Below are positions 9-21,482 of a stretch of 46,535 nt of DNA, one piece after another. The position numbers and the translations under genes were made by a program. A model generated the notes under the pieces. That model was not told where the DNA came from, searched no databases, and saw only the letters and a list, made by a program, of their open reading frames with translations. Positions within the stretch are counted from its first letter, which is position 1. Each line of letters opens with the position of its first letter. This DNA is from Lysobacter enzymogenes. GTDB taxonomy: Bacteria > Pseudomonadota > Gammaproteobacteria > Xanthomonadales > Xanthomonadaceae. Location of the stretch: positions 1 through 46,535 of the forward strand of contig NZ_FNOG01000016.1 of NCBI RefSeq assembly GCF_900106525.1, written 5' to 3'.

Positions 9-124
9 CCCTGGTGATAATAGCTGTGTGGAACCACCCGATCCCATCCCGAACTCGGAAGTGAAACGCATATGCGCCGATGGTAGTGTGGCTTAAGCCA
101 TGCAAGAGTAGGTCATCGCCAGGG
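9..124 (+). rRNA. rrf: 5S ribosomal RNA
   Basis: The stretch has the conserved 5S core (GAACCACCCGATCCCATCCC, then GAACTCGGAAGTGAAAC) and terminal helix halves CCTGGTG near position 10 and CGCCAGG near 118-123. Its length of about 116 nt is normal. It is the 3' end of an rRNA operon whose 16S and 23S genes would lie before the window. The exact ends are uncertain by a few bases. Confidence 0.96.
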
Positions 125-4630: not shown

Positions 4631-5701
4631 TCACTTCAGCCGGTCGACGGCCTGATAGATCGCGGCGAGCGAGTGGCTGCGGTTGCCGCTGCCGGCGACC
4701 GCGGCGATGGCGGCGTCGGCGTCCAGGCCGCGCTCGCCGGCCAGGCGGCGGATCAACACCGCGGCTTCGTCGAGCCGCAGTTCGCGCACGTCGACGTGGG
4801 CGAAGCAGCGGCCCGGCCGCACCAGCGCGTCGTCGAGATCGCCGACGTTGGGCAGGTTGGTCGAGAAGATGATCTTTCGCCCCTGCGCGCGCACCACGCC
4901 GTCGGCGATGGCGAGGAAGCGATGCAGGTGTTCGTTGCCTTCGGCGCGCGGACGCAGCAGATGATCGGCGTCTTCGACGACGAAGGCGTGGTCGTCGCCG
5001 GTGATGAACTTGACGTAGATCTCGTCGCACTCCAGCGCTTTCTTGTCGCCCGTGTACAGCGCCTGCGCGCTGCCTTCGTTGCGGCGCGAAATCTCGCCGA
5101 GGATCGCGCGGATCAGCCGGGTCTTGCCGGTGCCGGGCCGGCCCTGCAGCACCAGCACCGTTTCCTTGGCGCGCAGATAGCGGTCGATGAAGCCGGCGAC
5201 GCCGCCGATGTCGGGATAGGCCTCGTCCAGCAGCACATCGTCGGCCAGTTCCTCGATGCTGGCGCTCTGCAACTGGCCGTTGCCGCTGAGGAAGTTCCAG
5301 TCGATGGAGAACATCGGTTCGCGGATGCGCACGGGTTCGATGCGCGCCTGCACGGCCTGCAGGACCGCTTCGGCGCGTTCGACCGAGTCGGCCCAGATGC
5401 CGAAGTAGAACGAACAGTAGTCGGCCTTGCTGCCGGCGTGGGCGTCGACGAATACACCCTCGCCGTCGAGCAGCAGGTTGCGGCCGTTGGGGCGGTGCGC
5501 GTTCAGGCCGAGCTGGGTGGCGAGGTCGTCGAACATGGCGTCGACCTGGGTGCGCGCGGCCAGCCGCAGCGAGCGGTGGATCGGATAGCGGGCGACGCCG
5601 CGTTCGAGCGCGTCGGCGAGGCGGGCGTTGAGGATCAGCGAGGACAGATCCCAGAGCTGATGGTTGAAGACAGCGCCGTAAGGCTTGTGGTCGGTACTCA
5701 T
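4631..5701 (-). CDS. AAA+ family ATPase
   Basis: The likely product is 356 residues, starting MSTDHKPYGAV at 5701; a longer reading to 5899 is in frame but its extra part looks non-coding. The C-terminal half is an AAA+ module: Walker A GRPGTGKT (about residue 188), Walker B FVVEDAD (about 242), a sensor-1-like FSTNLPN, and an arginine region DDALVRPGRC. The N-terminal half (DUF5925-like by impression) has no recognised motif. It probably remodels or moves a protein or nucleic acid partner, but no substrate can be named. The E-D-A-D Walker B places acidic residues where hydrolysis needs them. No obvious Shine-Dalgarno precedes 5701, so the start is tentative. Confidence 0.75.
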   Translation of the reverse strand: MSTDHKPYGAVFNHQLWDLSSLILNARLADALERGVARYPIHRSLRLAARTQVDAMFDDLATQLGLNAHRPNGRNLLLDGEGVFVDAHAGSKADYCSFYFGIWADSVERAEAVLQAVQARIEPVRIREPMFSIDWNFLSGNGQLQSASIEELADDVLLDEAYPDIGGVAGFIDRYLRAKETVLVLQGRPGTGKTRLIRAILGEISRRNEGSAQALYTGDKKALECDEIYVKFITGDDHAFVVEDADHLLRPRAEGNEHLHRFLAIADGVVRAQGRKIIFSTNLPNVGDLDDALVRPGRCFAHVDVRELRLDEAAVLIRRLAGERGLDADAAIAAVAGSGNRSHSLAAIYQAVDRLK

Positions 5702-8018: not shown

Positions 8019-8206
8019 TAGTCCTCCGCCAATGGCGATGCTTGCGAAACGACCTTGAACCCGGGGTTCAAGTGGGAACGCTTGGACGCCTTCGGGCTTC
8101 CCGCTGCTAGGCGGACTTGCACTCCAGGCTTCCGGCGCGTCCCCGGTGTCGTCATTAAGGGACAAGGCGAATGTTTGCGCACGCCGTCGCGCACAGCAGA
8201 GGACGT
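8019..8206 (-). ncRNA. ssrS: 6S RNA
   Basis: The gene lies between zapA and ygfA, the classic 6S location. The RNA ends pair: GTCCTCTGC (8205-8197) with GCGGAGGAC (8029-8021), forming the closing stem, for a length of about 188 nt, close to E. coli's 184. The characteristic palindrome TTGAACCCCGGGTTCAAG is present near 8056-8073, matching the conserved 6S segment CCTTGAACCAAGGGTTCAAG. A TATACT -10 box sits just upstream. 6S RNA mimics an open promoter and sequesters sigma-70 RNA polymerase in stationary phase. Ends are inferred from pairing and promoter position. Confidence 0.9.
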
Positions 8207-8979: not shown

Positions 8980-9229
8980 CCCGGCACGATGGCAGGACCG
9001 GGCGGGGGCGGTCAAGGCGGGGCGGGGGCCGGTTGGGCTGCGGTCACACTGGCGCGCGGCCCTTCGCTGCGGGCGGGCGCCCGGGCGGCGCGGCGCGAAC
9101 GGCGGATTTCAGCGGCTGCGGGCGCCGTCGCCGCGTCCGCGAAGACGGCGCGCCGCGCGGCCGGTGTGGCGTGCCGGGCCGCGCGACGCGCCGGTGGCGG
9201 ACGAATCGCTGGGGTACTGCATCAAGGAC

Positions 9230-9256
9230 GGGCGCGCCGGCCGCGCCGGCGCGCCC
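9230..9256 (-). terminator. GC-rich hairpin at the end of the lyase/HDO/methyltransferase operon
   Basis: A perfect 12-bp stem (9230-9241 with 9245-9256) with a 3-base loop lies 8 bases past the methyltransferase stop codon. There is no clear T-run, so it may act as a weak terminator or 3'-end stabiliser. Confidence 0.5.
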
Positions 9257-9264
9257 GCGGCGGC

Positions 9265-10338
9265 TCAGGGCCGCAGTTCGAACAGCGCCGGCAGCGGCGG
9301 CCGGTCGGAGGGGACTTTGCGGAAGCGGCTGAAACCGGCGGCGGTGGCCATCTCGCGGGCGCGCTTCTCGCCCATGAACGCGCCCAGCCCGGCGCCGTGG
9401 TGCGACAGCGAGCAGGTCATGCAGTACAGCGTGCTCTGCGGGTACATCACCCGGCCGAACAGGTTCATGTTCTCGTGCAGTTCTTCCGACAGGTTGAGCT
9501 CGACCATCAGGTAGGTGCCGTCCTCCGCCGTGGTCGCGCGCAGGTCGTGCAGCATCTGCTGCGGGTCGGCGGCGTCGTGGATGACGACGAAGGTGGTCAC
9601 GAAGTCGAACTTCTGCCCGACCACCGCGTCCGAGTCGGCGACTTCGAAACTGACCCGGTCGGCGACGCCGGCGGCTTGCGCGTTGGCGCGCGCGCGTTCG
9701 ATCGACGGCAGGTGGAAATCCACGCCGACCACGCGCGCGTTGGGAAAGGCCTGCGCCATCGTGATCGCGGCCAGGCCGCTGCCGCAGCCGAAGTCCAGCG
9801 CGGTGCCGCCGGCTTCGAGCTTTTCCTTGACCCCGTCGAGCGAGGGAATCCAGCGCTGCACCAGGAAGTGCTTGTACCAGGGCATGGTCATGCGCTCCAT
9901 GCCTTGCCAGGTTTCCAGCGGGTAGGCCTCTTCCGGCGCGCCGCCGCCGTTGCGGAAGGCTTCGGCGATGCGCGGGGCCATGCTCACGAACGGCACGCTG
10001 AGCTGGAGGATGCCGCCGGCGAAGTACGGCGAGTCTTCGTCGGCCAGCACCGGCGCGTACTCGGCCGGCAGCCGGTAGCGGCGGGTTTGCGGGTCGTAGT
10101 GCACGTACTGGCCGGTGGCCATCGCGCCCAGCCATTCGCGCAGGTAACGCGCGTTGAGGCCGGTGTCGGCGGCCAGTTCCTCCAGCGTCACCGCGCCCAG
10201 GCGGGCCAGCGCCTTGAACAGGTCGAGCCGGTCGCCCAGGTAGAGCATGGCGCCGCGCAGGGTGTTGCCGTAGTCCTCCATGATCCGGGCCGAGAATTGT
10301 TCGACCTTGCTGTGGTCCATCGCGTTGCCTTCCGCCAT
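9265..10338 (-). CDS. flcA: SAM-dependent methyltransferase, FlcA-like (last gene of fluopsin-type cluster)
   Basis: The 357-residue protein begins MAEGNAMDHSKVEQF at 10338, preceded by GGGAG about 8 bases upstream. It has an N-terminal winged-helix dimerisation region (about 25-95: LFKALARLGAVTLEELAADTGL) and a class I methyltransferase domain with SAM motif DFGCGSG (182-188) and an acidic residue after the next strand (VVGVDFH). In the fluopsin C pathway the methyltransferase N-methylates the thiohydroxamate, and that is the expected role here. It is the last of five same-strand genes and is followed by a hairpin. The letter A is given by gene order and by being the only methyltransferase. 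A different small-molecule acceptor is possible. Confidence 0.75.
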   Translation of the reverse strand: MAEGNAMDHSKVEQFSARIMEDYGNTLRGAMLYLGDRLDLFKALARLGAVTLEELAADTGLNARYLREWLGAMATGQYVHYDPQTRRYRLPAEYAPVLADEDSPYFAGGILQLSVPFVSMAPRIAEAFRNGGGAPEEAYPLETWQGMERMTMPWYKHFLVQRWIPSLDGVKEKLEAGGTALDFGCGSGLAAITMAQAFPNARVVGVDFHLPSIERARANAQAAGVADRVSFEVADSDAVVGQKFDFVTTFVVIHDAADPQQMLHDLRATTAEDGTYLMVELNLSEELHENMNLFGRVMYPQSTLYCMTCSLSHHGAGLGAFMGEKRAREMATAAGFSRFRKVPSDRPPLPALFELRP

Positions 10339-10393
10339 TGCCGTGTCTCCCGGGCTCGTATGCTTGCTGGTAAGGGTGTGGTGGGTGATGCGC

Positions 10394-11857
10394 TCAGCGC
10401 CGGCGGCCGGCTTCGTTGAGCACGCCGTCGACGATGGTTTCGGCCATGCCCAGGTGCGCGCCGGGTTCGAACAGCCGCGCCAGCCGGCTTTCGCCGACCG
10501 CGGCGAGCACGCGCGGATCGGCCTCGACCGCCTCGCGGATCGGCACGCGGTCGCGCTGGCAGGCCTGGGTGAGTTCGAAGATGATTTCGTAGGCGCTGTT
10601 CTTGCCCAGGGTCTTGGACATTTCGAACACGAACGCTTCCATGCAGATCGAATCGCTGAAGGCCTGGGCGTTGCGCTCCATGCGCGCATCGTTGACGGTG
10701 AGGCCGGCGACGGTGTCGGCGAGCAGGCGGATCGCCATCAGCGCGTAGTGCGAGACGTCAGCGACCGCGCACCATTCCAGGCGGGTGCCGCGGTAGTCGC
10801 GCTCGTGTTCGAGGATCATCGCGTCCAGCGCCAGCATCACCTGGGCCTTGGCCAGCCGCGCCATCACCACCACCTGCTCGCAGCCTTCCGGGTTGCGTTT
10901 GTGCGGCATGGTGCTGCTGCCGATCTGGCCGGCGCTCCAGCCGACCTCGACCTCGCCGATCTCCCAGCGGTTGAGGGTGCGGATCTCGTCGGCCACGCGC
11001 GCCAGCGAAGCGGTGGTCATCGCCAGCAGGCTGACGAATTCGGCGACGCGGTCGCGGGCGACGTGCCAGCCGGCCAGCGGCACTTCCAGGCCGAGCCGGC
11101 GCGCGAACGCGTCCAGCAGCGGCATCGCCTTGGGGCCGAACGCGGCCATGGTGCCGACGCCGCCGAACAGCTGCACGACGAGCACGCGCTGGCGCGCCTG
11201 GCGCAGGCGGTCGCGGTGGCGCAGCAGTTCGTCGATCCAGCCGGCGACCTTGAGGCCGAAGGTGGTCGGCAGCGCCGGGATCGAGTGGGTGCGCGCGACC
11301 ATCACCGAACAGCGGTGGCGATCGGCCAGGATCGCCAGCCGCGCCAGCAGCGCGTCGAGTTCGGCGTCCATCGCGTCGAACACGTCGCGCATCTCTAGCG
11401 ATTGCGCGGTGTCCTGGATGTCCTGGGTGGTGGCGCCGTAATGCACGAACTCGCGCGCCTCGGCGCCGCACAAGTCCTGCAATGCGTGCAGCAGCGGCAT
11501 CAGCGAATGGCCGGTGCGGGCGACACCTTCGGCGATGCGTTCGATGTCCATCGCCGGCAGGCGCGCGGCGCGCTGGATGTCCAGCGCCGCCGCGCGCGGC
11601 ACCATGCCGACCTCGGCCTGGGCCAGCGCCAGCGCGGCTTCGACGTCGAGCCAGCGCTGCAGCCGGCAGCGGCTGCAGAAGATCGCCCGGGTCGCGGCGC
11701 CGGCGTAGCCGCCGCCGTGGGTCTGGGAGTCGAGGACGTGGCTGTGTTCGTGCCGGCAATCGTCGAGCGCGTGTTCGGCGCCGGTGGCGCAGTGCGCGGG
11801 CGCGGCGGGCGCGGCGAAGGGGGCCAGCGGAATCGGGACGAGCGTTTGGGGTTCCAT
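10394..11857 (-). CDS. flcB: Fumarase/adenylosuccinate-lyase-family lyase, FlcB-like, with His/Cys-rich N-terminus
   Basis: The 487-residue protein has the three conserved superfamily regions: HYGATTQD (139-146), ARTHS with H191, and signature loop SSTMPHKRNP (314-323) with the catalytic serine. These enzymes add to or eliminate from fumarate. In fluopsin C biosynthesis two such lyases act on cysteine; one is thought to attach cysteine to fumarate and the other to release fumarate later. The B/C letters follow gene order only. The first 50 residues are extra compared with the neighbouring paralogue and hold six His and two Cys (H22, C23, H29, C34, H36, H38, H40, H47), with C61 and C64 following. 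Metal binding there is an inference. Confidence 0.75.
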   Translation of the reverse strand: MEPQTLVPIPLAPFAAPAAPAHCATGAEHALDDCRHEHSHVLDSQTHGGGYAGAATRAIFCSRCRLQRWLDVEAALALAQAEVGMVPRAAALDIQRAARLPAMDIERIAEGVARTGHSLMPLLHALQDLCGAEAREFVHYGATTQDIQDTAQSLEMRDVFDAMDAELDALLARLAILADRHRCSVMVARTHSIPALPTTFGLKVAGWIDELLRHRDRLRQARQRVLVVQLFGGVGTMAAFGPKAMPLLDAFARRLGLEVPLAGWHVARDRVAEFVSLLAMTTASLARVADEIRTLNRWEIGEVEVGWSAGQIGSSTMPHKRNPEGCEQVVVMARLAKAQVMLALDAMILEHERDYRGTRLEWCAVADVSHYALMAIRLLADTVAGLTVNDARMERNAQAFSDSICMEAFVFEMSKTLGKNSAYEIIFELTQACQRDRVPIREAVEADPRVLAAVGESRLARLFEPGAHLGMAETIVDGVLNEAGRRR

Positions 11858-11927
11858 CGCATACCTTCCGTTCGGGAGTGGCGGGGTGGAAACGCTTTGC
11901 GTGCGCGGCTGTGCGTGCGGCTGAGGG

Positions 11928-13352
11928 CTAGCCGCGGACCGCGATGTCGGCGGCCGCGATCTGCGCGGCCGCTTCGGTGGCAGTGGTGCGGTGGCGGGCG
12001 ACGGCGGCGGTTTCGCCGGCGACCAGCTCCACCATTCGCGCCGCCAGCCCGGTGTAGGTGACCGGGTCGAGCAGCGCTTTCAGCGCGCCGGGCGCGAACG
12101 CGTCGCGGATGCGCGCGTCGGCCAGCAGGGCGTCGGCGAAGGCGAGCTCGTCGCGGCGCGCGCGCATCGAGGCCTCGTGCACCAGGTCGTGCGCGGTCTG
12201 CTTGCCGACCCGCTCGCCCAGCGCCAGCATCACCCGCTCCGACAGGATCCGGCCGCCGAGCAGGTCGAGGTTGTCGCGCATGCGCTGCTCGCGGATGTCC
12301 AGGCCCGCGGCCAGGGCCTCGTCCATGCGCGCCAGCAACGCGCCGGTGTAGACGAAGATTTCCGGCAGCGCCGCCCATTCGATCCGCCACGCGGTGCCGT
12401 CGCGTTCGTGCTGCTGGAAGGCGGCGTCGGTGAGCGCGACCATCTGCGCGCGGATCAGCCGCGACAACGCGCTGATCAGGTCGATGGTCGAGGGGTTCTG
12501 CTTGTGCGGCATGGTGCTGGAGCCGATCTTGCCCGGCGGCGCGGCCTCGCGGACTTCGTCGATCTCGGTGCGCTGCAGGTGATAGACCTCGTTGGCGATG
12601 CGGCCCATCGTCACCGCCACCTGCACCAGCAGCCCGGCGACGTCGAGGATGCGGTCGCGCGCGCTGTGCCAGCTGGTCTGCGGCGCCGCCAGCCCGAGCC
12701 GGGCCAGCGTGCGCCGCTGCAGTTCCAGGCCGCGTTCGCCGAACGAGGCCAGGGTGCCGACCGCGCCGGTGAGGTTGCCGGTCATGACCCGCGCATAGGC
12801 TTGGTCGAAGCGCTCCAGATGGCGGTCGATCTCGTCGACCCACACCGCGACCTTGTAGCCGAACGTGGTCGGCAGCGCCTGCTGGCCGTGGGTGCGCGCG
12901 ACCATCGGCGTGCGCTTGTGGCGCAGCGCCAACTGCAGCAGCTGTGCGCGGATCGAGCGCAGCCGCGCCAGCGCGCATTGCCAGGCGTCGCGGATCTGCA
13001 GCACCAGGCCGGTGTCGAGGATGTCCTGGGTGGTCGCGCCGTAATGCACGAACTCGCCGCAGTCGCCGCGGCACAGCGCGGCCAGGGCGCGGATGGTCGG
13101 CACCAGCACGTGGCCGGTTTCGCGGCTTTGCCGGCCGAGCGCGTCGAGGTCGAAGGATTCGGCGTTGGCGGCGCGGGCGATCTCCCGCGCCGCCTCGTCC
13201 GGGATCATGCCCATCTCGGCCTGGGTCAGCGCCAGGGCGCGCTCCACGTCCAGCCACTTCTGCAATTGGTTGCGGTCGCAGAAGATCGCTGCGAAGTCGG
13301 GATCGGAGTAGACGCCCGCGTACAGGCGCGATTCGGTGGCGTGGCTGGGCAT
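11928..13352 (-). CDS. flcC: Fumarase/adenylosuccinate-lyase-family lyase, FlcC-like
   Basis: This 474-residue paralogue of the next gene shares HYGATTQD (103-110), ARTH with H155, and signature SSTMPHKQNP (278-287). All catalytic regions look intact. It lacks the His/Cys-rich extension of its neighbour. True adenylosuccinate lyase (purB) is normally single and lies with other genes; two adjacent diverged copies beside two HDO genes point to secondary metabolism. The suggested role is one of the two lyase steps (cysteine-fumarate adduct formation or fumarate release) of a fluopsin C-type pathway. Spacing to flanking genes is 70 and 55 bases on the same strand, consistent with one operon. Confidence 0.75.
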   Translation of the reverse strand: MPSHATESRLYAGVYSDPDFAAIFCDRNQLQKWLDVERALALTQAEMGMIPDEAAREIARAANAESFDLDALGRQSRETGHVLVPTIRALAALCRGDCGEFVHYGATTQDILDTGLVLQIRDAWQCALARLRSIRAQLLQLALRHKRTPMVARTHGQQALPTTFGYKVAVWVDEIDRHLERFDQAYARVMTGNLTGAVGTLASFGERGLELQRRTLARLGLAAPQTSWHSARDRILDVAGLLVQVAVTMGRIANEVYHLQRTEIDEVREAAPPGKIGSSTMPHKQNPSTIDLISALSRLIRAQMVALTDAAFQQHERDGTAWRIEWAALPEIFVYTGALLARMDEALAAGLDIREQRMRDNLDLLGGRILSERVMLALGERVGKQTAHDLVHEASMRARRDELAFADALLADARIRDAFAPGALKALLDPVTYTGLAARMVELVAGETAAVARHRTTATEAAAQIAAADIAVRG

Positions 13353-13407
13353 GGCAGCGGGCTCGGTGGCGGCGGGCTGGCGCGGGTGCTGCGGATCGGG
13401 CGGAGGG

Positions 13408-14433
13408 TTATGGCACGCGCTGCATCTCTTCCCAGACCGCGTCGTAGTAGGCGCGTTCGACCCGGAAGTGCTGCGCCAGCGAAGTCAGGAACGACTTCTG
13501 GAAGGCGTGGTCGGGCAGGCGCTTGGCGATCAGGCTCCATTCGCGCTTGGCCCGCGGCGGCACCAGGCTGACGTGGATGCGGTAGTACTCGGCCTCGTCC
13601 TCGCTCAGGCCGGCCTTGAGCAGCGCCTTGTAGAGCTTCTCGTGGTTGCCCGGCACGACGATCTCGGTGATGTAGAACACCGCCAGCCCCCAGCCCACGT
13701 CGGGATTGCGGAAGCTGCGCACGCGGTTGTTGAGGTAGGCGATCTCTTCGGGCAGCGTGCTGACCGCCTGGAAATCCGCTTCCAGGCCGATCGCCGCGAG
13801 CAGCTTGGCCAGCAGGCGCGGATGCGAGCCTTGCTCGCTCTCTTCGCCGAGCTCGCCGTACAGATAACGGCCCAGCGCCGCGGCCTCGTCGACGTCGACC
13901 AGATTCACCAGCAGGTCGGCGGCGTCGCGGTACAGGCGGAAGGTGCGGAACCACTGCCGACGCAGGAACACCTGCAACTGCGCGCGGCTGGCGCGGCCTT
14001 CGAAGATGTATTCCGACATCGGGTGCTTCTCGCGCGAGCGCGCGGCGACTTCCTGCTCGATGCGGGCGAGGAATTCGGCCTCCGACAGCGCCTGCGGCAC
14101 TTCGGCGGCGGGGATGTGGCGCTCCTCGACCCGGTAGGCCTCGTTGGACAGCCAGCGCCGGGTCAGCGCGGTGCCGGTGTCGTCGCTGAGCGAGAGGATG
14201 TACAGCAGCTTCTGGTATTCCTCGTTGGCCGCGTCCTGGCCTTTGAGCGCGTCTTCGGCCAGCGAGGTGAGGGTCTTGCTGGCGGTGTGCAGGTGGGCGA
14301 ACGGCGCTTCCGGGTCCAGTGCGCGCGCCAGGATGCGGGCGCGGTTGCTCTGCAGCGCGTCGAGCTGCTGCAGCGAATGGTTGCGGGCGGCGAGGGTCAG
14401 TGCGGGCATGGTGGCGTTCATGGCTGCGTTCAT
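13408..14433 (-). CDS. flcD: Heme-oxygenase-like iron enzyme with reduced ligand set, FlcD-like
   Basis: The 341-residue protein has the heme-oxygenase-like domain in its second half (about residues 125-340), opening with EKHPMSEYIFEG. Candidate ligands by eye are E197 or E198, H204, E257 and H287. After H287 the usual HxxxDxxH helix pattern reads H-x3-V-x2-R, so the second-iron ligands are missing. FlcD of P. aeruginosa is described as a mononuclear iron HDO held by two His and one Glu that excises the oxime carbon; H204, E257 and H287 fit that. It starts 8 bases after the stop of the upstream HDO gene, so translation is probably coupled. The exact start among three nearby ATGs (14433, 14421, 14409) is uncertain. 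Confidence 0.72.
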   Translation of the reverse strand: MNAAMNATMPALTLAARNHSLQQLDALQSNRARILARALDPEAPFAHLHTASKTLTSLAEDALKGQDAANEEYQKLLYILSLSDDTGTALTRRWLSNEAYRVEERHIPAAEVPQALSEAEFLARIEQEVAARSREKHPMSEYIFEGRASRAQLQVFLRRQWFRTFRLYRDAADLLVNLVDVDEAAALGRYLYGELGEESEQGSHPRLLAKLLAAIGLEADFQAVSTLPEEIAYLNNRVRSFRNPDVGWGLAVFYITEIVVPGNHEKLYKALLKAGLSEDEAEYYRIHVSLVPPRAKREWSLIAKRLPDHAFQKSFLTSLAQHFRVERAYYDAVWEEMQRVP

Positions 14434-14442
14434 GGCGGCGGC

Positions 14443-15462
14443 TCAGTGGACGGAGGGGCTTTGCATCTGGCGCCACAACAGATCGAAGTAGGCGCGGTTG
14501 ATGTCGAAGTGGCGGGCCAGCGACTGCATGAACGTGCGCTGGAAGGAATCCTCGTGCGCGTACTTGGCGATCAACTCCCACATCTCCTCGGTGTCGATCT
14601 CGTCCTGGGTGCCGTGCAGGCGGTGGAACTCGCTGGGTTCCTCGGGCACGCCCATACGCTGGAGCAGCTCGTAGATGCGCAGGTGGTTGACGCAGCTGAC
14701 CGATTCGACCGCGTACAACAGCGACAGGCCCCAGGCCACGTCGGTGTGGCGCACGCAGCGGATGCGGTTGTTGAGGTAGGCCTTCTCCAGCGGGTGCAGC
14801 ACGGCGAAGTCGATCTCCAGCGGGATCTCGAAGTGGGTCATCAGGTGCGACAGCAGCGCCGGATGCGAGCGCTCGGGCGTTTCCGCGCCGGCTTCGCCGT
14901 AGAGGTTGCGGTAGAACACCGAGGCGTCGCGGATGTCGGGGAAGCGGAACGCCAGCTCGGCCAGCAGGCTGTAGAAGTTGTACGAGCGGTTCCAGTGGTG
15001 CTGCAGGAAGCTGCGCACGTCCTGCTGCGACGGTTCGCCCTGGAACAGGTGCTGCGACATCGGGTGGCGCACGCGGGTGCGCGAGGCGATCTCGGCGTCG
15101 ATGACGGCGCGGAATTCTTCCACCGGCACCGGGCGGAACTCGGGCAGGGCCGGGGCGAACTGGTCTTCGACCGAATAGATCTGGCTGGCGAGCCAGCGCC
15201 GGGTCGGTTCGCTGTGCGGCTCGCCGGGCAGGTGCAGGTCGAGCAGGATGGATTGGTACTGCGCGTAGGCGGCTTGGTCGCCGGACAGGCCCTGGCGCAC
15301 CAGCGCCAGCAGCTCGTCGGCGGCGAGCGCGATCTGCGCGTTGGTGGCGCCCGGACGCAGGGCGTCGGCGAGGTAGTCCGGCGTGTGCGCGGCCTGGCGC
15401 GCGGCGCGCGGCGGCGCCGCGCTGGCGGGTTGCGGGTCGAGGATCCTGCTGGCGGTGCTCAT
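14443..15462 (-). CDS. flcE: Heme-oxygenase-like iron enzyme, FlcE-like
   Basis: The 339-residue protein starts MSTASRILDPQ at 15462 after a strong GAGGGGGAA ribosome-binding site. It is a paralogue of the next gene, with domain motif RVRHPMSQHLFQG (about 131-143). Candidate ligands are E194, H200, E253, H283 and D287; the seventh position after H283 is D290 rather than the usual His, so HxxxDxxD replaces HxxxDxxH. This is closer to a di-iron HDO set than its neighbour. In fluopsin C biosynthesis an HDO decarboxylates and N-hydroxylates the cysteine-derived intermediate, which is the inferred role. It is the first enzyme gene of the operon, 373 bases downstream of the MerR-YHS gene. Confidence 0.72.
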   Translation of the reverse strand: MSTASRILDPQPASAAPPRAARQAAHTPDYLADALRPGATNAQIALAADELLALVRQGLSGDQAAYAQYQSILLDLHLPGEPHSEPTRRWLASQIYSVEDQFAPALPEFRPVPVEEFRAVIDAEIASRTRVRHPMSQHLFQGEPSQQDVRSFLQHHWNRSYNFYSLLAELAFRFPDIRDASVFYRNLYGEAGAETPERSHPALLSHLMTHFEIPLEIDFAVLHPLEKAYLNNRIRCVRHTDVAWGLSLLYAVESVSCVNHLRIYELLQRMGVPEEPSEFHRLHGTQDEIDTEEMWELIAKYAHEDSFQRTFMQSLARHFDINRAYFDLLWRQMQSPSVH

Positions 15463-15835
15463 GGGTTCCCCCTCGGGCTGGCGTGGATGGCTGCGCGCGC
15501 CGCAACGCGGGCGCGCAGGCGGACGCGCCGCGACCGTGCGGTCGCGACTGGCTGGATTGAGTTCTTGCAACGGCGGGCCGTAAACGCGCGGATCGCGAAA
15601 GCGCCGATCCGATGCGTGCGGCGTCGAAACGTGCGGCGTTGAAGCGCGCTGCGCAGAAGCGTGCAGCGCTGGGGCGTGCGGCTTCGAAGCGCGCGCTACG
15701 AAGCGTTCGTGCTGAAGCGTAGGACTACGGCGTGAGATCTGAGACGTGAGATCTGAAGCGACGCGAACGCCCGATGCGGGCCTCGCGCTACGGCCGCCCG
15801 GCGGGGGCGAGCGGCCGTTCCCCTGTCGGCCGGCG
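15463..15835 (-). other. Long leader between merR-YHS and the first enzyme gene, with degenerate direct repeats
   Basis: The 373-base gap holds no supportable gene. At 15610-15760 there are about eight degenerate units of 14-18 bases sharing GTGCGGCG and GAAGCG on the plus strand, including a clean repeat of CGTGAGATCTGA spaced 14-15 bases apart (about 15730-15757). A small dyad CGTAG-GA-CTACG is at 15718-15729. A 7-bp hairpin (15791-15797 with 15811-15817) follows merR but has no T-run. No second MerR-type operator was found, so the enzymes may depend on the merR promoter. Confidence 0.4.
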
Positions 15836-16084
15836 TCAGCGCGCGGCCGATGCTGCGCCGGTGTCCAGGAAGTCCTGGCGGCACTGCGCCGAGCAGAAGT
15901 AGTAGCCCACGCCGGCCTGCACCGCGTGGTGCGGCGTGGTTTCGATGTTCACCTGCATGCCGCAGACCGGATCGACCGCGCCGGTCGCGGCGTCGGTCTC
16001 GCAGGTGCGCGCGGCCGAGCAGCAACTGCGCTGCGCCGGCTGGGGGCCATCGGAGGGCTTGTCCAATGGATGCGAACCGCTCAT
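15836..16084 (-). CDS. Possible separate YHS-domain metallochaperone from an internal start
   Basis: An in-frame ATG at 16084 (residue 133 of the fusion, MSGSHPLDK) is preceded by a near-ideal Shine-Dalgarno AAGGAG at 16098-16093 with 8-base spacing. Translation from here gives an 82-residue Cys-rich protein with the YHS domain (CGM, then FCSAQC). The site falls exactly where a free-standing MerR would stop. This could be a working second start or a relic of a former two-gene arrangement. It overlaps the fusion in the same frame, so both products may be made. Confidence 0.4.
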   Translation of the reverse strand: MSGSHPLDKPSDGPQPAQRSCCSAARTCETDAATGAVDPVCGMQVNIETTPHHAVQAGVGYYFCSAQCRQDFLDTGAASAAR

Positions 16085-16480
16085 GTGTTTCTCTCCTTCC
16101 AGTGCGTTGACGATCGGACAACATTCCACCGCGCCGCGCCCGGGGCAGGAGTCGAGCAGGACTTGCAGCAGATCGCGGATGTGGCTGAGTTCGGCGATCT
16201 TGGCTTCCACGTCGGCGAGCTTCTGCGTCGTCGCCGCCTTGACCCCGGCCATGTCGCTGCCGCGGCTGCCGAGCAGGGCCAGCAGTTCGCGGATTTCGGC
16301 GAGCGTGAAGCCCAGGTTCTTGGCCCGGCGGACGAACTGCAGCCGGGCCACGTCCTTGGTCTCGAAACGCCGGTAGCCGGACATCTGGCGCGTCGGCAAC
16401 GGCAACAACCCCTGTCGTTCGTAGTAGCGCACGGTGTCGATGCCGACCCCGACGCGTTGCGCGAACTCCCCGATCTTCAA
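15836..16480 (-). CDS. MerR-family metal regulator fused to a YHS metal-binding domain
   Basis: The 214-residue reading begins at TTG 16480, giving MKIGEFAQRVGVGIDTVRYY, with AGGGAGG seven to eight bases upstream; no ATG fits the start of homology. Residues 1-70 are the MerR winged helix-turn-helix, 75-108 the dimer helix, and C112 and C120 (plus C121) a metal loop with CueR spacing and CueR-like numbering. CueR's S77 position is M77 here. Residues 133-165 are a linker with C153, C154 and C160, and 168-208 a YHS domain with C173, C196 and C200. It likely activates its own operon in response to copper or a related ion. The fusion is unusual: typical MerR regulators end near residue 132. Confidence 0.85.
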   Translation of the reverse strand: MKIGEFAQRVGVGIDTVRYYERQGLLPLPTRQMSGYRRFETKDVARLQFVRRAKNLGFTLAEIRELLALLGSRGSDMAGVKAATTQKLADVEAKIAELSHIRDLLQVLLDSCPGRGAVECCPIVNALEGEKHMSGSHPLDKPSDGPQPAQRSCCSAARTCETDAATGAVDPVCGMQVNIETTPHHAVQAGVGYYFCSAQCRQDFLDTGAASAAR

Positions 16481-16518
16481 AGTCCACCTCCCTGTTCGTG
16501 GCGCTCGGTGTGCCGCCA

Positions 16519-16549
16519 GTGTTCGGTCTGGACCATAGTCCAGGGTCAA
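16519..16549 (-). promoter_or_regulatory. MerR-type promoter/operator upstream of merR-YHS
   Basis: On the minus strand TTGACC (-35, 16549-16544) is followed by the perfect dyad CTGGAC-TATG-GTCCAG (16543-16528). The -10 (GAACAC or AACACT, about 16524-16519) is weak, at 19-20 bp spacing. A long spacer with a central dyad is the hallmark of promoters that MerR-family proteins untwist. It lies about 40 bases before the TTG start, so autoregulation is likely. Confidence 0.7.
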
Positions 16550-16698
16550 GCCTCCGGATCGGCGGCAGGTCCGGATGAACATTGACCGGATTGGCTAATC
16601 CGCAAAGTTCGGCCGATCCGCCGTTGCGGGGCGCGAATCGCGGCAATTTGTGCGGCATTGCGCCGCGGTCGCGACGTGACCGCGTTCGCGTTCGCACA

Positions 16699-16770
16699 TA
16701 GGCCCTCAAGGAAGGTTCGCGGAGGCCCTCCCACAAGAGCGGGAGCCTCGGGCTTCAAAGCTTTCCCACA
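16699..16770. repeat. Degraded copy of the TTGTGGGAGGGCC inverted repeat
   Basis: Half-elements AGGCCCTCCCACAAGAGCG (16723-16741) and GGGCTTCAAAGCTTTCCCACAA resemble the cleaner pairs at 25890-25983 and 37386-37476. It occupies the gap between the sensor gene and the MerR operator. Confidence 0.6.
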
Positions 16771-16793
16771 AAAACCGGCCTCGCCGAGGCCGG
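16768..16793 (-). terminator. Intrinsic terminator of the GGDEF-EAL sensor gene
   Basis: On the minus strand a 7-9 bp stem CCGGCCTCG/CGAGGCCGG (16793-16775) is followed by TTTTTG (16774-16769), 9 bases past the stop codon. It separates the sensor transcript from the merR promoter. Confidence 0.85.
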
Positions 16794-16802
16794 GTGCGGC
16801 GC

Positions 16803-19800
16803 TCAGAACGCCGCGCGCACGCTCTGCGGCGGCTGCCACTGCTTGATGAAGGCCAGGCAGGCGTCGGCTTCCAGCGGCTTGGCCAGCCAGTAGCCCTGGA
16901 TTTCGTCGCAGCCGTGCGCGCGCAGGAATTCCATCTGCTCTTCCAGCTCCACGCCTTCGGCGACCACGTTCAGGCCCAGCGAATGGGCCATGGTGATGAC
17001 GGTGGTGGTGATGGCTTCGTCGTCCGGGTCGCGGGTCAGGTCGCTGATGAATTCCTTGTCGATCTTCAGCGTGTTGATCGGCAGGCGCTTGAGATACGCC
17101 AGCGACGAGTAGCCGGTGCCGAAGTCGTCCACCGCCAGCGCCACGCCGAGTTCGCGCAGCGCCTGCATGGTGTTGGAGGTGTGCGCGGCGTTGGACATCA
17201 CCACGCTTTCGGTCAGTTCCAGCTCCAGCCGCCACGGCGGGATGCCGCTTTCGCTGAGCGCGCGGGCGACCATTTTCGGCAAGTCGCCGCGCAGCAGCTG
17301 GATCGCCGAGACGTTGACCGACACCGACAACTGGTCGAGCCCGTGCTGGCGCCACTGGCGCAGGCGGTTGCAGGCTTCGCGCATCGCCCACTCGCCGATC
17401 TCCAGGATCAGCCCGCTTTCCTCGGCCAGCGGGATGAACTGGGTCGGCGGGATGTTGCCGTACTCCGCGCTCTGCCAGCGCAGCAGCGCTTCCACGCCGG
17501 TGATGCGCGCCTCCGGCAGCGACAGCCGCGGCTGGAACACCAGGCGCAGCTCGTTGCGGTCGAGCACCTTGCGCAGCGCTGCGGAGATGGTCGCGCGCTG
17601 GCGGATCTCGATGTCCATCGCCTCGGTGTAGCGCATGAAGGTGCGCCGGCCGGCGGCCTTGGCCTGGTACATCGCGGTGTCGGCGTGCTTGAGCAGGTCG
17701 GTCGGCACCTGCGCATGGTCGGGATAGACGCTGATGCCGATCGATGGCGAAATCGCCACGTCGTGGCGCTCGTCGAAGTCCAGCGGCGATTCGAACGCCT
17801 TGATGATGCGCCGGGCCACGTCTTCGGCCTGCTCGGGCGTGTCCAGGTTCTCCAGCACCACGGTGAACTCGTCGCCGCCCAGGCGCGCGACGGTGTGTTC
17901 GGCGCCGACGGTTTCCTGCAACCGCACCGCGGCGGCGCGCAGGATGCGGTCGCCGGCGGCGTGGCCGAGCGAGTCGTTGATGTCCTTGAACCGGTCCAGA
18001 TCGAGGAACAGCAGGGCGATGCGGTGGCCGTGGCGGCGCGCGCGCACGATCGCCCGCGACAGCCGCTCCGACAGCAGGGTGCGGTTGGGCAGGCTGGTCA
18101 GGGTGTCGTAGTTGGCGAGGTAACGCAGTTCCTGCTCGGCGCGCTTTTGGTCGGTGATGTCGGTCAGCACCGCCACGTAATGGCCGCGCTGGCCGCTGCT
18201 GTCGAGCACGATGGAGGCCTGCAGCCAGCACAGGAACTCGTTGCCGTCCTTGCGCTGCTGCCAGATCTCGCCCGACCAGCGGCCGCTGCGCTGCAGCTCG
18301 TCGCGCATGTCCGAATAGAACTCCGGATCGTGCTGGCGGCTGTCGAGCAGGCCGGTGGTCTGGCCGATGACTTCGTTCTCGGGATAGCCGGTCATGCGCG
18401 AGAACGCGGGATTGATCGAGACGAACACGAAGTCGCGGTCGAACACCGCCACCGCCTCGGCCATCGAGCGCAACACCTCGCTGGCGATGCGGCGTTCGCG
18501 CTCGGCGCTGCGCACCGCGGTGACGTCGCGGCCGGTGCCGGCCACGCGCACCGGATGGCCTTCGCCGTCGCGCTCGACCACCCGGCCGCGCGCCCGCACC
18601 CAGCCCCATTCGCCCTTGGGCGTGCGCATGCGGTGCTCGGACAGGAACAGCGCGGCGTCGCCCTTGAGGTGCTTGCGCAGCAGCTCGGCCACCCGCGGCA
18701 GGTCGTCGGGATGGATCTCGTGATCGTCGGCGATGTCGGCCTGCACGCCGATTTCCGGCGATTGCGCGTTGTGGTCGTCCACGCGCATGCGGTGCAGTTC
18801 GCGCCGGGTCAGGTCGTAGTCCCAGAACTGTTCGCCGGAGGCCCACAGCGCCAGTTTCAGGCGTTCTTCGCGTTCGCGGATCTGGGTGAAGTAGCCGCGT
18901 TCGCGGATCTGGGTGAAGTAGCCGCGTTCGCGCTGGCGCGCGCGGTGCCAGCGCCAGCCGAAGCTCAGCAGCACGCCGAGCGCGGCCAGGGCCGCGGCGG
19001 CGATCGCCAGCGGGTGCCGCCACAGCGGTGGGTCGACGCTGACCGGGATGGTCAGTTCCTGGGTGTTCCACACCCCGTCGCGGTTGGTCGATTGGGCGCG
19101 GAACAGATAGCGCCCCGGCGGCAGGCGGGTGTAGGTGATGTCCTGGCGCGGGCCGTTGTCGATCCAGTCGCGGTCGAACCCGTCCATGCGGTAGCGATAG
19201 CGGATGCCGCTGTTGGGGCCGAAGTCGAGCGCGCCGATGCGCAGGCGCAGGATGCCGGCGCCGTCGGGGATCTCCAGCTTGGACGACTGCCACAGCGCGC
19301 TGGAGCCGGCGCTGGTGTCCGAACCGATCCAGGCGCCGAGCAGGCGCACCGGCGGGGTGTAGCGCGAATCGGCGATGCGCGCCGGGTCGAACAGGTTGAG
19401 CCCGCGCACGCCGCCGAAGGCCAGGCGCCCGTCGGCCAGCGCGGCGACCGCACCGGCGTTGAATTCCAGATCCTGCAGGCCGTCGGCCAGGCCGTAGCGG
19501 CGCACCAGCGAGGCGCCCGGGTCGAAGCGCAGGATGCCGTTGTCGGTGCCCAGCCACAGACGGCCGTCGGGGCGTTCGGCGAGGGTGAACACCACCGGCA
19601 CCGGATGGTCGCCCAGCACCTCGGCCAGCGGGTGTTCGAAGCGGATGCGGCCGTCGCCGAATTCCACCACCCGGCTCAGCCCGGCCTGGGTGCCGACCCA
19701 GATCGAGCCGTCGGCGGACTGGTGCAGCGCGCGCACCGTGTTGCCCGGCAGGCTGTCGGCCTGGTCGGTGACGTGGCGGTAATGGCGCAGGTAACCGGTC

Positions 19801-21482
19801 TTGGGATCGAGCAGGTCCAGGCCGTCGCCGGTGCCGAACCAGATCCGGCCGGCGCGGTCTTCCAAGATGGCGTTGACGCGCGGGTGGCTGAGCCCCTTGG
19901 GATCGCCTTCGCGGTAGGCATAGCGCACCAGCACGCCGGTGTCGGGCAGGTAGTGCAGCGCGCCGATCTCGTCGCCGCCGAGCCACAGGCTGCCGTCGCG
20001 GGCGAAGCGCAGCGAGCGCAGGGCCGCGTCCTTGTAGCCGCGCAGGTCGACCGCCTCGATCCGGCCGGTGCCCGGGTCCAGCCGCAGCAGGCCGCTGGCG
20101 GTGGCCAGCCACAGGCGCCCGGGCGGCGTGGCCCTGCGCGCGGTGGCGGCGCTTTTTGCAGCGGCGCTGGTCGTGGCAGCGCCGTTCGCGGCCGCGCCGG
20201 CCGGGTCCGCCGCGTGTTCGGGTTCGCGCGCGATCGCGGTGATCCGGCGCGAAGCCGCCGGCAGCAGCGCGGTCATGTCCTGGAAGCGGTCGCCGGACAG
20301 GTCGTAGCGGCGCAGGTGGGCGTTGTCGGTGCCGATCCAGATCGCGCCGCTGTCGTCCTGGGCCAGGGCGCGGATGCTGGCGTCGGCGGCGGCGCGGTCG
20401 GGGCGCGAGTCTTCCAGGTCCAGCACGTAGCTGAAGCGGGTGCCGCGCGGATCGGCCACGGCCACGCCGCGGAACAGGCCGCCGGCCCACAGCAGTCCGC
20501 CCTGGTCGACCATCAGCGTGTCGATGGTGTCTTCCGGCAGGCTCGCCTCGACCCCGGGCTCGGCGTGGATGCGCTGGCTGTGGCCGGTCTCCGGGTCATA
20601 GCGGTACAGGCCGCTGCCGAAGCCGGCGATCCACAGCCGGTGGTCGTGCGCCTCGACCAGGGCGCGCGCGTCGCGCAGCCCGGCCAGGTCTTCGTCTTCG
20701 ATCTTGACCAGCACGCCGGTGCGGCCGTCGAGCCGGTACAGGCCGTCGGCGCCGCCGGCCCAGAGCACGCCGCGGTGGTCGAGGGCGAGGCTGCGCAGCG
20801 CGATCGGCGCGCCGATGCGCTCGACCCGGCCATCGGGTTTGATTCGGTGCAGGCCAGCCGAGCTGGCGAACCAGGCGCTGCCGTCGCCGCCCTGGACCAG
20901 GCCCTGCCAGGGCGCGGCGCGGGCGGCCTCGCCGGGCAGCGCCAGCAGCAGCTCGCGCGCGCCGGTCTGCGGGTCCAGCCGCTCCAGGCCGGCGAGGGTG
21001 CCGATCAGCACCTGCTCGCGCCACGGCAGCAGCGCGACCACCTGGCGCCCGGCCTGCGCTTCCGGCGCGCCGTAGCGGTGGATGCTGCCGCTGGCCAGGT
21101 CCAGCCGCGCCAGATATTCCGAATGGGTGCCGATCCACAGCGCGCGCTGGCCGTCCAGGGCCAGCGCGGTGACATGGCTGTCGGGCAGGCTGGCCGGGTC
21201 GCGCGGATCGTGGCGGTAGGCGACGTAGCGCTGGCCGTCGTAGCGGTGCAGGCCGCCCTGGGTGCCGACCCAGACGAAGCCGTGCGCGTCCTGGGCGAAC
21301 GCGGTCACCGAGTTCTGGCTCAGGCCCAGCTCGCTGCCCAGGCGCGAAAAATAGAAATCGCGGGTCGCCGCGGCCACGGGCTGCGGCCACGTCGCCACCC
21401 ACAGCACGGCGGCGATCACAACAGCGGTCAGCAGGGTGGCGGGGGAGAAAGGACGCACGGACACCGTGGCGCAGGCACGCAA
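16803..21482 (-). CDS. Membrane sensor with periplasmic propeller, PAS, GGDEF and EAL domains
   Basis: The 1559-residue protein has a signal segment (about 12-38), a long periplasmic two-component-regulator propeller (about 45-745; repeated G-x-(I/V)-W-(V/I/F)-G-T blades), a Y_Y_Y domain (about 750-815), one membrane helix (about 822-845), PAS-type domains (about 880-1110), then GGDEF (1202-1206) and EAL (1331-1333). GGDEF is intact, and the EAL module keeps ELTES, DDFGTGYSSL, DK and AEGVE, so both c-di-GMP synthesis and breakdown are possible. Propeller sensors of this type often sense sugars or polymers. A 9-residue duplication lies just after the membrane helix. The start codon is unclear: TTG 21482 or GTGs at 21464 and 21458, none with a clear SD. 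Confidence 0.92.
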   Translation of the reverse strand: MRACATVSVRPFSPATLLTAVVIAAVLWVATWPQPVAAATRDFYFSRLGSELGLSQNSVTAFAQDAHGFVWVGTQGGLHRYDGQRYVAYRHDPRDPASLPDSHVTALALDGQRALWIGTHSEYLARLDLASGSIHRYGAPEAQAGRQVVALLPWREQVLIGTLAGLERLDPQTGARELLLALPGEAARAAPWQGLVQGGDGSAWFASSAGLHRIKPDGRVERIGAPIALRSLALDHRGVLWAGGADGLYRLDGRTGVLVKIEDEDLAGLRDARALVEAHDHRLWIAGFGSGLYRYDPETGHSQRIHAEPGVEASLPEDTIDTLMVDQGGLLWAGGLFRGVAVADPRGTRFSYVLDLEDSRPDRAAADASIRALAQDDSGAIWIGTDNAHLRRYDLSGDRFQDMTALLPAASRRITAIAREPEHAADPAGAAANGAATTSAAAKSAATARRATPPGRLWLATASGLLRLDPGTGRIEAVDLRGYKDAALRSLRFARDGSLWLGGDEIGALHYLPDTGVLVRYAYREGDPKGLSHPRVNAILEDRAGRIWFGTGDGLDLLDPKTGYLRHYRHVTDQADSLPGNTVRALHQSADGSIWVGTQAGLSRVVEFGDGRIRFEHPLAEVLGDHPVPVVFTLAERPDGRLWLGTDNGILRFDPGASLVRRYGLADGLQDLEFNAGAVAALADGRLAFGGVRGLNLFDPARIADSRYTPPVRLLGAWIGSDTSAGSSALWQSSKLEIPDGAGILRLRIGALDFGPNSGIRYRYRMDGFDRDWIDNGPRQDITYTRLPPGRYLFRAQSTNRDGVWNTQELTIPVSVDPPLWRHPLAIAAAALAALGVLLSFGWRWHRARQRERGYFTQIRERGYFTQIREREERLKLALWASGEQFWDYDLTRRELHRMRVDDHNAQSPEIGVQADIADDHEIHPDDLPRVAELLRKHLKGDAALFLSEHRMRTPKGEWGWVRARGRVVERDGEGHPVRVAGTGRDVTAVRSAERERRIASEVLRSMAEAVAVFDRDFVFVSINPAFSRMTGYPENEVIGQTTGLLDSRQHDPEFYSDMRDELQRSGRWSGEIWQQRKDGNEFLCWLQASIVLDSSGQRGHYVAVLTDITDQKRAEQELRYLANYDTLTSLPNRTLLSERLSRAIVRARRHGHRIALLFLDLDRFKDINDSLGHAAGDRILRAAAVRLQETVGAEHTVARLGGDEFTVVLENLDTPEQAEDVARRIIKAFESPLDFDERHDVAISPSIGISVYPDHAQVPTDLLKHADTAMYQAKAAGRRTFMRYTEAMDIEIRQRATISAALRKVLDRNELRLVFQPRLSLPEARITGVEALLRWQSAEYGNIPPTQFIPLAEESGLILEIGEWAMREACNRLRQWRQHGLDQLSVSVNVSAIQLLRGDLPKMVARALSESGIPPWRLELELTESVVMSNAAHTSNTMQALRELGVALAVDDFGTGYSSLAYLKRLPINTLKIDKEFISDLTRDPDDEAITTTVITMAHSLGLNVVAEGVELEEQMEFLRAHGCDEIQGYWLAKPLEADACLAFIKQWQPPQSVRAAF
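18873..18926. repeat. 27-bp perfect tandem duplication inside the sensor gene
   Basis: Copies at 18873-18899 and 18900-18926 are identical and duplicate the residues GYFTQIRER in frame. A third partial start (TTCGCG) follows. It lies in the cytoplasmic helix between the membrane segment and the PAS region. Confidence 0.95.

Follow-up and report, generated by a model that had tools for sequence, protein, structure and literature searches.

Which product do six genes on one strand of a Lysobacter enzymogenes contig lead to, and which signal turns them on? The stretch analysed here, referred to as the window, comprises 46,535 nucleotides (NZ_FNOG01000016.1, positions 1 to 46,535), and its minus strand carries, from 16480 to 9265, a MerR-family gene and five enzyme genes, all of them open reading frames (ORFs). 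We consider it probable that they constitute an operon for a product of the fluopsin C type, a copper-thiohydroxamate antibiotic, under a MerR-YHS copper switch that was captured from a unit of merR and a copper-ATPase gene. The initial annotation had described five enzymes of this pathway headed by a MerR regulator; the families, their order and the span are borne out by the minus-strand ORFs and by Pfam, as follows.

16518 to 16549, minus strand: putative MerR-type promoter/operator with TTGACC, the dyad CTGGACTATGGTCCAG, a 20-bp spacer and AACACT (-10 assigned by eye).
15836 to 16480, minus strand: MerR-family regulator with a fused C-terminal YHS domain, 214 amino acids, TTG start (Pfam MerR_1, MerR-DNA-bind, YHS).
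15836 to 16084, minus strand: possible ORF within the regulator gene, which may encode a free YHS protein of 82 amino acids, with ATG and the Shine-Dalgarno-like GGAAGGAGAG at 16100-16091.
14443 to 15462, minus strand: first of two heme-oxygenase-like iron enzymes (HDOs), FlcE counterpart by position (Pfam HOASN, Haem_oxygenas_2).
13408 to 14433, minus strand: second, FlcD-like HDO, predicted to excise the oxime carbon with mononuclear iron (Pfam HOASN, Haem_oxygenas_2; PDB FlcD match).
11928 to 13352, minus strand: aspartase/fumarase-superfamily lyase, FlcC, predicted C-S cleavage (Pfam Lyase_1, ADSL_C).
10394 to 11857, minus strand: aspartase/fumarase-superfamily lyase, FlcB, predicted to form S-succinylcysteine from cysteine and fumarate (Pfam Lyase_1, ADSL_C).
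9265 to 10338, minus strand: S-adenosylmethionine (SAM) methyltransferase with an Rv2258c-like N-terminus, FlcA, predicted N-methylation (Pfam HTH_65, Methyltransf_31); the start was picked by eye via a Shine-Dalgarno-like site, 10320 being an alternative.

The fluopsin C pathway was reportedly defined in a Science paper of 2021. The set of Pseudomonas aeruginosa, flcA-E (PA3515-PA3519), consists of the same five enzyme kinds, and the closest link to it is the second HDO of the window. Aligned with the P. aeruginosa FlcD of PDB entry 8w1q, it is identical at 235 of 326 residues (72%), and the PDB FlcD sequences (8w1q with 9b9m-o; 3bjd) are matched with E values of about 1e-152 (best 7.9e-153), while the HDO in the FlcE position reaches about 1e-70 with the same entries. 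All 15 FlcD residues checked (E181, H191, H274, E244, R281, V278, R121, Q147, R150, Y177, Y220, R224, H251, Y270, Y271) are unchanged in every one of the 21 loci compared, which are the window, seven further Lysobacter loci and 13 loci of the Pseudomonas family; the residue list was taken from the accessible part of PMC11363339, where the pathway steps are named as well. Throughout the 21 loci the five-gene order is constant, with gene gaps of at most 92 bases, so the Lysobacter order is that of the 13 Pseudomonas-family fluopsin C-type clusters. Given the best E value and the same gene order in 20 other loci, a chance match is excluded.

Among matches above 50% identity, to which this comparison was limited, the 13 Pseudomonas-family clusters agree with the window at 73-76% for FlcE, 68-74% for FlcD, 71-74% for FlcC, 72-78% for FlcB and 81-84% for the methyltransferase. 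One locus of this orthologue set (L139) has an FlcD close to the PDB FlcD. In a tree combining all five proteins, the Lysobacter and the Pseudomonas sequences each group together, with support of 100/100. Both lyase translations contain GSSTMPHK, and the letters FlcB and FlcC were assigned solely from gene order. Taken together, a complete fluopsin C-type cluster merR-yhs-flcE-flcD-flcC-flcB-flcA, with its product predicted from the enzymes, is strongly supported, in good agreement with the enzyme set claimed at the outset. The alignment with PA3515-PA3519 that the initial annotation had proposed was run for FlcD, with the 72% identity given above.

A MerR regulator with cysteines spaced as in CueR had been claimed for the head of the operon. 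Membership in the MerR family stands, and C112 and C120 exist in the window copy, but at residue 120 four of the eight Lysobacter genomes carrying flc have another amino acid (Arg in three, Ser in one), and the pair conserved in 8/8 is C112-x8-C121. Met77 is also present in all eight; its aligned counterpart is Ser77 in CueR and a Cys in both mercury MerR (5crl) and 4ua1. In the PDB alignments, Cys112 and Cys121 match the two C-terminal cysteines of 5crl and 4ua1 gap-free, whereas CueR is one residue shorter and requires a one-residue gap. We take Met77, Cys112 and Cys121 to be putative ligands of the regulator. The regulator and CueR have the MerR family and a copper context in common; CueR, however, has Ser77 and C112-x7-C120 in place of the conserved Met77 and C112-x8-C121. 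An identification as CueR was thus rejected, with C120 variable, Met77 standing for Ser77 and the score below the cut-off of the CueR profile.

The kin of the regulator tell more about its metal. The six closest regulators found (56-65% identical), five from flc-free Lysobacter (56-63%) and one from a Xanthomonas campestris plasmid (NZ_CP066927.1, 65%), all lie beside genes for a multicopper oxidase, CopB, cytochrome c and DUF411, i.e., in copper-resistance (cop) operons. They likewise carry the Met and the C-x8-C spacing. Their operator core is identical to that of flc in four of the six and differs by one mismatch in two. In all five Lysobacter cop loci readable onward, the next gene, whose ATG overlaps the merR stop, encodes a P-type ATPase of 787-793 amino acids (CPC, DKTGT) with CC motif and YHS domain at its N-terminus. 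Two of these five ATPases were scanned and score 569.5 and 571.9 bits, both above the TIGR01511 copper cut-off of 397. A more distant relative (47%, Sphingobium) stands near genes for copper-binding proteins. Because its kin and its operator lie with copper-resistance operons, the regulator is assigned to a copper type: it appears to be a copper-operon MerR distinct from CueR, with copper, suggested by this context, as our best guess for its signal. Copper control, as put forward in the initial annotation, is thereby supported through kinship of regulator and operator and not through cysteine spacing.

The leaders of the eight flc-carrying Lysobacter genomes share a conserved promoter block, GGCTTGACyCTGGACyATGGTCCAGACCGAACACTG. 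Its 22-base operator core (16549-16528) ends 47 bases ahead of the merR start in the window. With up to two mismatches allowed, the core is present in 13 of 20 Lysobacter genomes, and a reversed control pattern gave no match in the same 20. Each of the eight flc-carrying genomes has it exactly once, ahead of the flc merR, and a wider use of the operator in these genomes was thus rejected at this threshold. Five flc-free genomes have the core ahead of a related merR, one of them with an overlapping second match on the other strand. Counted by regulator and operator at the cut-offs used, the 20 genomes comprise eight with the flc type, five with the cop type, none with both and seven with neither.

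A scan of 9000-16800 returned one terminator-like site and no sigma-70 site with a spacing of 16-18 (chance means 3.9 and 0.4). The terminator-like hairpin, at 16793-16775, precedes the operator; from merR to the end of flcA the scan found none. In the absence of a sigma-70 site of that spacing, the MerR-type promoter is the evident start. We infer that merR-yhs and the flc genes are transcribed together across the gap that separates them. In the eight genomes, the interval between yhs and flcE shows little conservation apart from a ribosome site and a hairpin-like stretch.

The YHS domain of the regulator ORF, a feature absent from the initial annotation, scores 34.9 bits against a Pfam cut-off of 30.3. 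The merR-YHS fusion is 88-95% identical in four other Lysobacter, whereas the three remaining flc-carrying genomes have a separate yhs gene (85-86 amino acids) whose ATG overlaps with the stop codon of merR. A frame difference joins the two genes into one ORF in the window and its four relatives. The internal yhs ATG and a purine-rich site upstream of it are kept in all eight genomes, in three of which the separate gene begins at this ATG, and translation of a free YHS protein from this start is possible in the window as well. The ratio of nonsynonymous to synonymous substitution rates (dN/dS; four pairs each, without a significance test) is 0.04-0.10 for the MerR part and 0.20-0.48 for the YHS part. 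As a separate observation, a MerR ORF of Marinobacter salarius pSMR5 (4992-5666) runs on, as judged by eye, into a heavy-metal-associated(HMA)-like stretch containing GMHCGGC; it stands beside merT, merP and merA and is, as predicted from these letters, another MerR with a fused metal-binding domain.

The leader thus resembles the merR/copper-ATPase unit of the cop operons in its operator core (0-1 mismatch), in the overlap of the merR stop with the next ATG, and in CC motif and YHS. The unit, however, has a whole ATPase, whereas the flc operon has only a YHS stub, followed by the biosynthetic genes. Most likely, Lysobacter captured the operator together with merR and the first part of an ATPase gene, which codes for YHS.

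Several points weigh against the reading of the locus as a fluopsin C-type operon with a captured copper switch, and with them other explanations have to be considered. The direct comparison with P. aeruginosa (PA3515-PA3519) covers FlcD alone, FlcA, B, C and E being compared with Pseudomonas-family orthologues; no export or self-resistance gene is seen between the operon ends; and merR-yhs and flcE are 373 bases apart, which leaves their co-transcription putative. The HDO, lyase and methyltransferase families serve several pathways. The natural product could thus be another thiohydroxamate or an oxime, related to fluopsin C but distinct from it, in line with lyase letters given by gene order and with the HDO examples from other pathways in the accessible part of PMC11363339. 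We regard this as very improbable in view of the identity of FlcD, its fully kept residues and the presence of all five closely spaced genes in 21 loci. A sensor of another soft metal, or of the product itself, ahead of genuine fluopsin C enzymes deserves somewhat more weight. The best NCBIfam score of the regulator is that of mercury MerR (121.9, below the cut-off of 150.85), the CueR profile TIGR02044 is not reached (114.3 bits against 147.4), and the conserved putative ligands differ from those of CueR: the C-x8-C spacing resembles mercury MerR, and Met77 is placed where that protein has a Cys. A 43% relative from Marinobacter sits in a mercury operon beside merT, merP and merA, and a sensor dedicated to the pathway would be in keeping with the one operator per genome. 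On the other side, the six closest homologues all belong to copper-resistance operons, both partner ATPases scanned exceed the copper-subfamily cut-off, and the counterpart genes of P. aeruginosa are CueR targets, as stated in the accessible parts of PMC7922089 and PMC12833586. A signal other than copper is therefore rather improbable.

The origin of the switch can be questioned in a similar manner. The YHS stub might be an ordinary small YHS gene that came to lie behind merR by chance, since the comparison spans only about 60-80 residues, the search was confined to the plasmid collection, and when five ATPases were compared with the eight leaders by tblastn, no convincing ATPase remnant appeared beyond YHS, apart from one extension, in the window, to ATPase residue 88. 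Such a chance neighbourhood seems unlikely to us, as the overlap of ATG and merR stop, the preceding CC motif and the kind of regulator are the same in flc and cop contexts, and the 25 plasmid matches listed, out of 223 records, all fall in heavy-metal P-type ATPases. The MerR tree also tells against a firm history: flc and cop copies part there at a support of no more than 65/64, the position of the root being unsure, and the direction of capture is therefore a deduction. A second MerR copy at the cop operon of the flc-carrying strains was considered and rejected: in a search of 16 kb per locus (E 1e-3), oxidase and CopB were found in 8/8, MerR and DUF411 in none. The four flc-free cop loci of a second batch, however, likewise have no merR (4/4), which is a further point against the captured copper switch; the absence is thus not special to flc-carrying strains.

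In the Pseudomonas family the same enzymes are connected to copper differently. A search of 13 Pseudomonas-family stretches (16-20 kb) with the Lysobacter regulator and YHS, without an identity filter, gave no convincing match; the best for the regulator has E 0.028 and 26% identity and lies about 8 kb from flcE (L144). Instead, a CueR-type promoter, TTGACCTT[G/T]CCA...TTTA, is found in 13 of 13 clusters, 42-353 bases ahead of the flcE start as set by us. The first form of the pattern matched 12/13; it was relaxed after the sites had been seen, without a chance control. This is in good agreement with the accessible part of PMC7922089, where the P. aeruginosa flc operon is a CueR target and holo-CopZ1 helps activate CueR, whereas the Lysobacter operon is headed by a MerR-YHS gene of its own and by another operator. 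Since the Pseudomonas clusters have a CueR-type promoter and no such regulator, Lysobacter seems to use a captured copper-efflux switch. This suggests that the same enzymes have been wired to copper in two ways, by a CueR-type promoter and by a dedicated regulator. If true, the two wirings would speak for copper stress being what naturally triggers fluopsin C.

The mechanism that we propose for Lysobacter takes its enzyme steps from the P. aeruginosa pathway. FlcB would add cysteine to fumarate, FlcE would convert the adduct to an oxime with loss of CO2, FlcD would remove the next carbon as formate, FlcC would cleave the C-S bond and FlcA would N-methylate, after which two N-methyl-thiohydroxamates would bind one copper. 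MerR-YHS would bind the one operator, which precedes the regulator gene, and a rise of cytoplasmic Cu(I) would make it activate the entire operon, and excess copper would end up in the antibiotic chelate. In Lysobacter the flc genes would have come to lie behind a captured segment made up of operator, merR and that part of the ATPase gene, at its 5' end, which codes for YHS. More tentatively, at somewhat less than even chances, we suggest that an efflux switch became an antibiotic switch in which the ATPase, cut down to its YHS domain and, in the lineage of the window, fused to the regulator, could pass Cu(I) to the Met/Cys sensor. The model for this role is CopZ1, which is reported to hand Cu(I) to CueR. 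If true, removal of copper by efflux would have been replaced by weaponising the metal.

The MerR-YHS sensor with its single operator and its unusual Met-Cys-Cys pattern is an object for study in its own right. A copper-antibiotic pathway known from Pseudomonas is now placed in Lysobacter, a genus studied for biocontrol. Our literature search, outside of which most subscription literature lies, so that an earlier report in print is possible, found no work pairing fluopsin or thiohydroxamate with Lysobacter. Within the same bounds, none was found pairing YHS with MerR and copper, or MerR with DUF411 and a multicopper oxidase.

As to distribution, FlcD was found in 8 of 20 Lysobacter genomes, in 4 of 198 genomes of the family sample, all four of them Lysobacter, and in one of 369 of the class sample, the window's own, which is also the only one of 398 genomes of the phylum sample with FlcE. 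Around P. haemolytica, FlcD occurs in 5 of 199 genomes of its genus and 8 of 398 of its family, two samples that overlap in some genomes. The flc loci include Lysobacter sp. yr284, P. haemolytica, P. fluorescens (two), P. spelaei and P. paracarnis, and no plasmid matches FlcE at E 1e-5. In G+C content the flc genes (0.675-0.719) do not stand out from the window as a whole (0.697).

The flc operon of the window and of four relatives sits between zapA and a gene that we call sens (16803-21482), which encodes a propeller-PAS-GGDEF-EAL protein of 1559 amino acids; in the other three flc-carrying genomes it lies elsewhere. In all 15 Lysobacter genomes without flc at this site (12 without flc and 3 with flc elsewhere), sens and zapA are within about 600 bases of each other. 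The flc operon therefore entered, or moved within, Lysobacter as one unit. On the other flank, zapA (Pfam) is accompanied by a 6S RNA gene (8019-8205, minus strand), beyond which lie what are presumably genes for 5-formyltetrahydrofolate cyclo-ligase, an EVE protein and rpiA; the flanking genes look like housekeeping genes. The 6S RNA gene and a 5S rRNA gene (10-124, plus strand) reach the Rfam gathering scores, and sens is matched in 20 of 20 Lysobacter genomes.

Two minor observations concern repeats and relatives of the cluster. A third gene of the HDO family (PF14518) exists in the same genome outside the cluster (G000:C4:300236-300661, L002). The hairpin-like stretch ahead of flcE, TCGCGACCG...CGGTCGCGG at 15521-15549, has a similar form in each of the eight Lysobacter leaders; at 16661-16680, ahead of merR, stands a partial copy. 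The stretch may be a genomic repeat.

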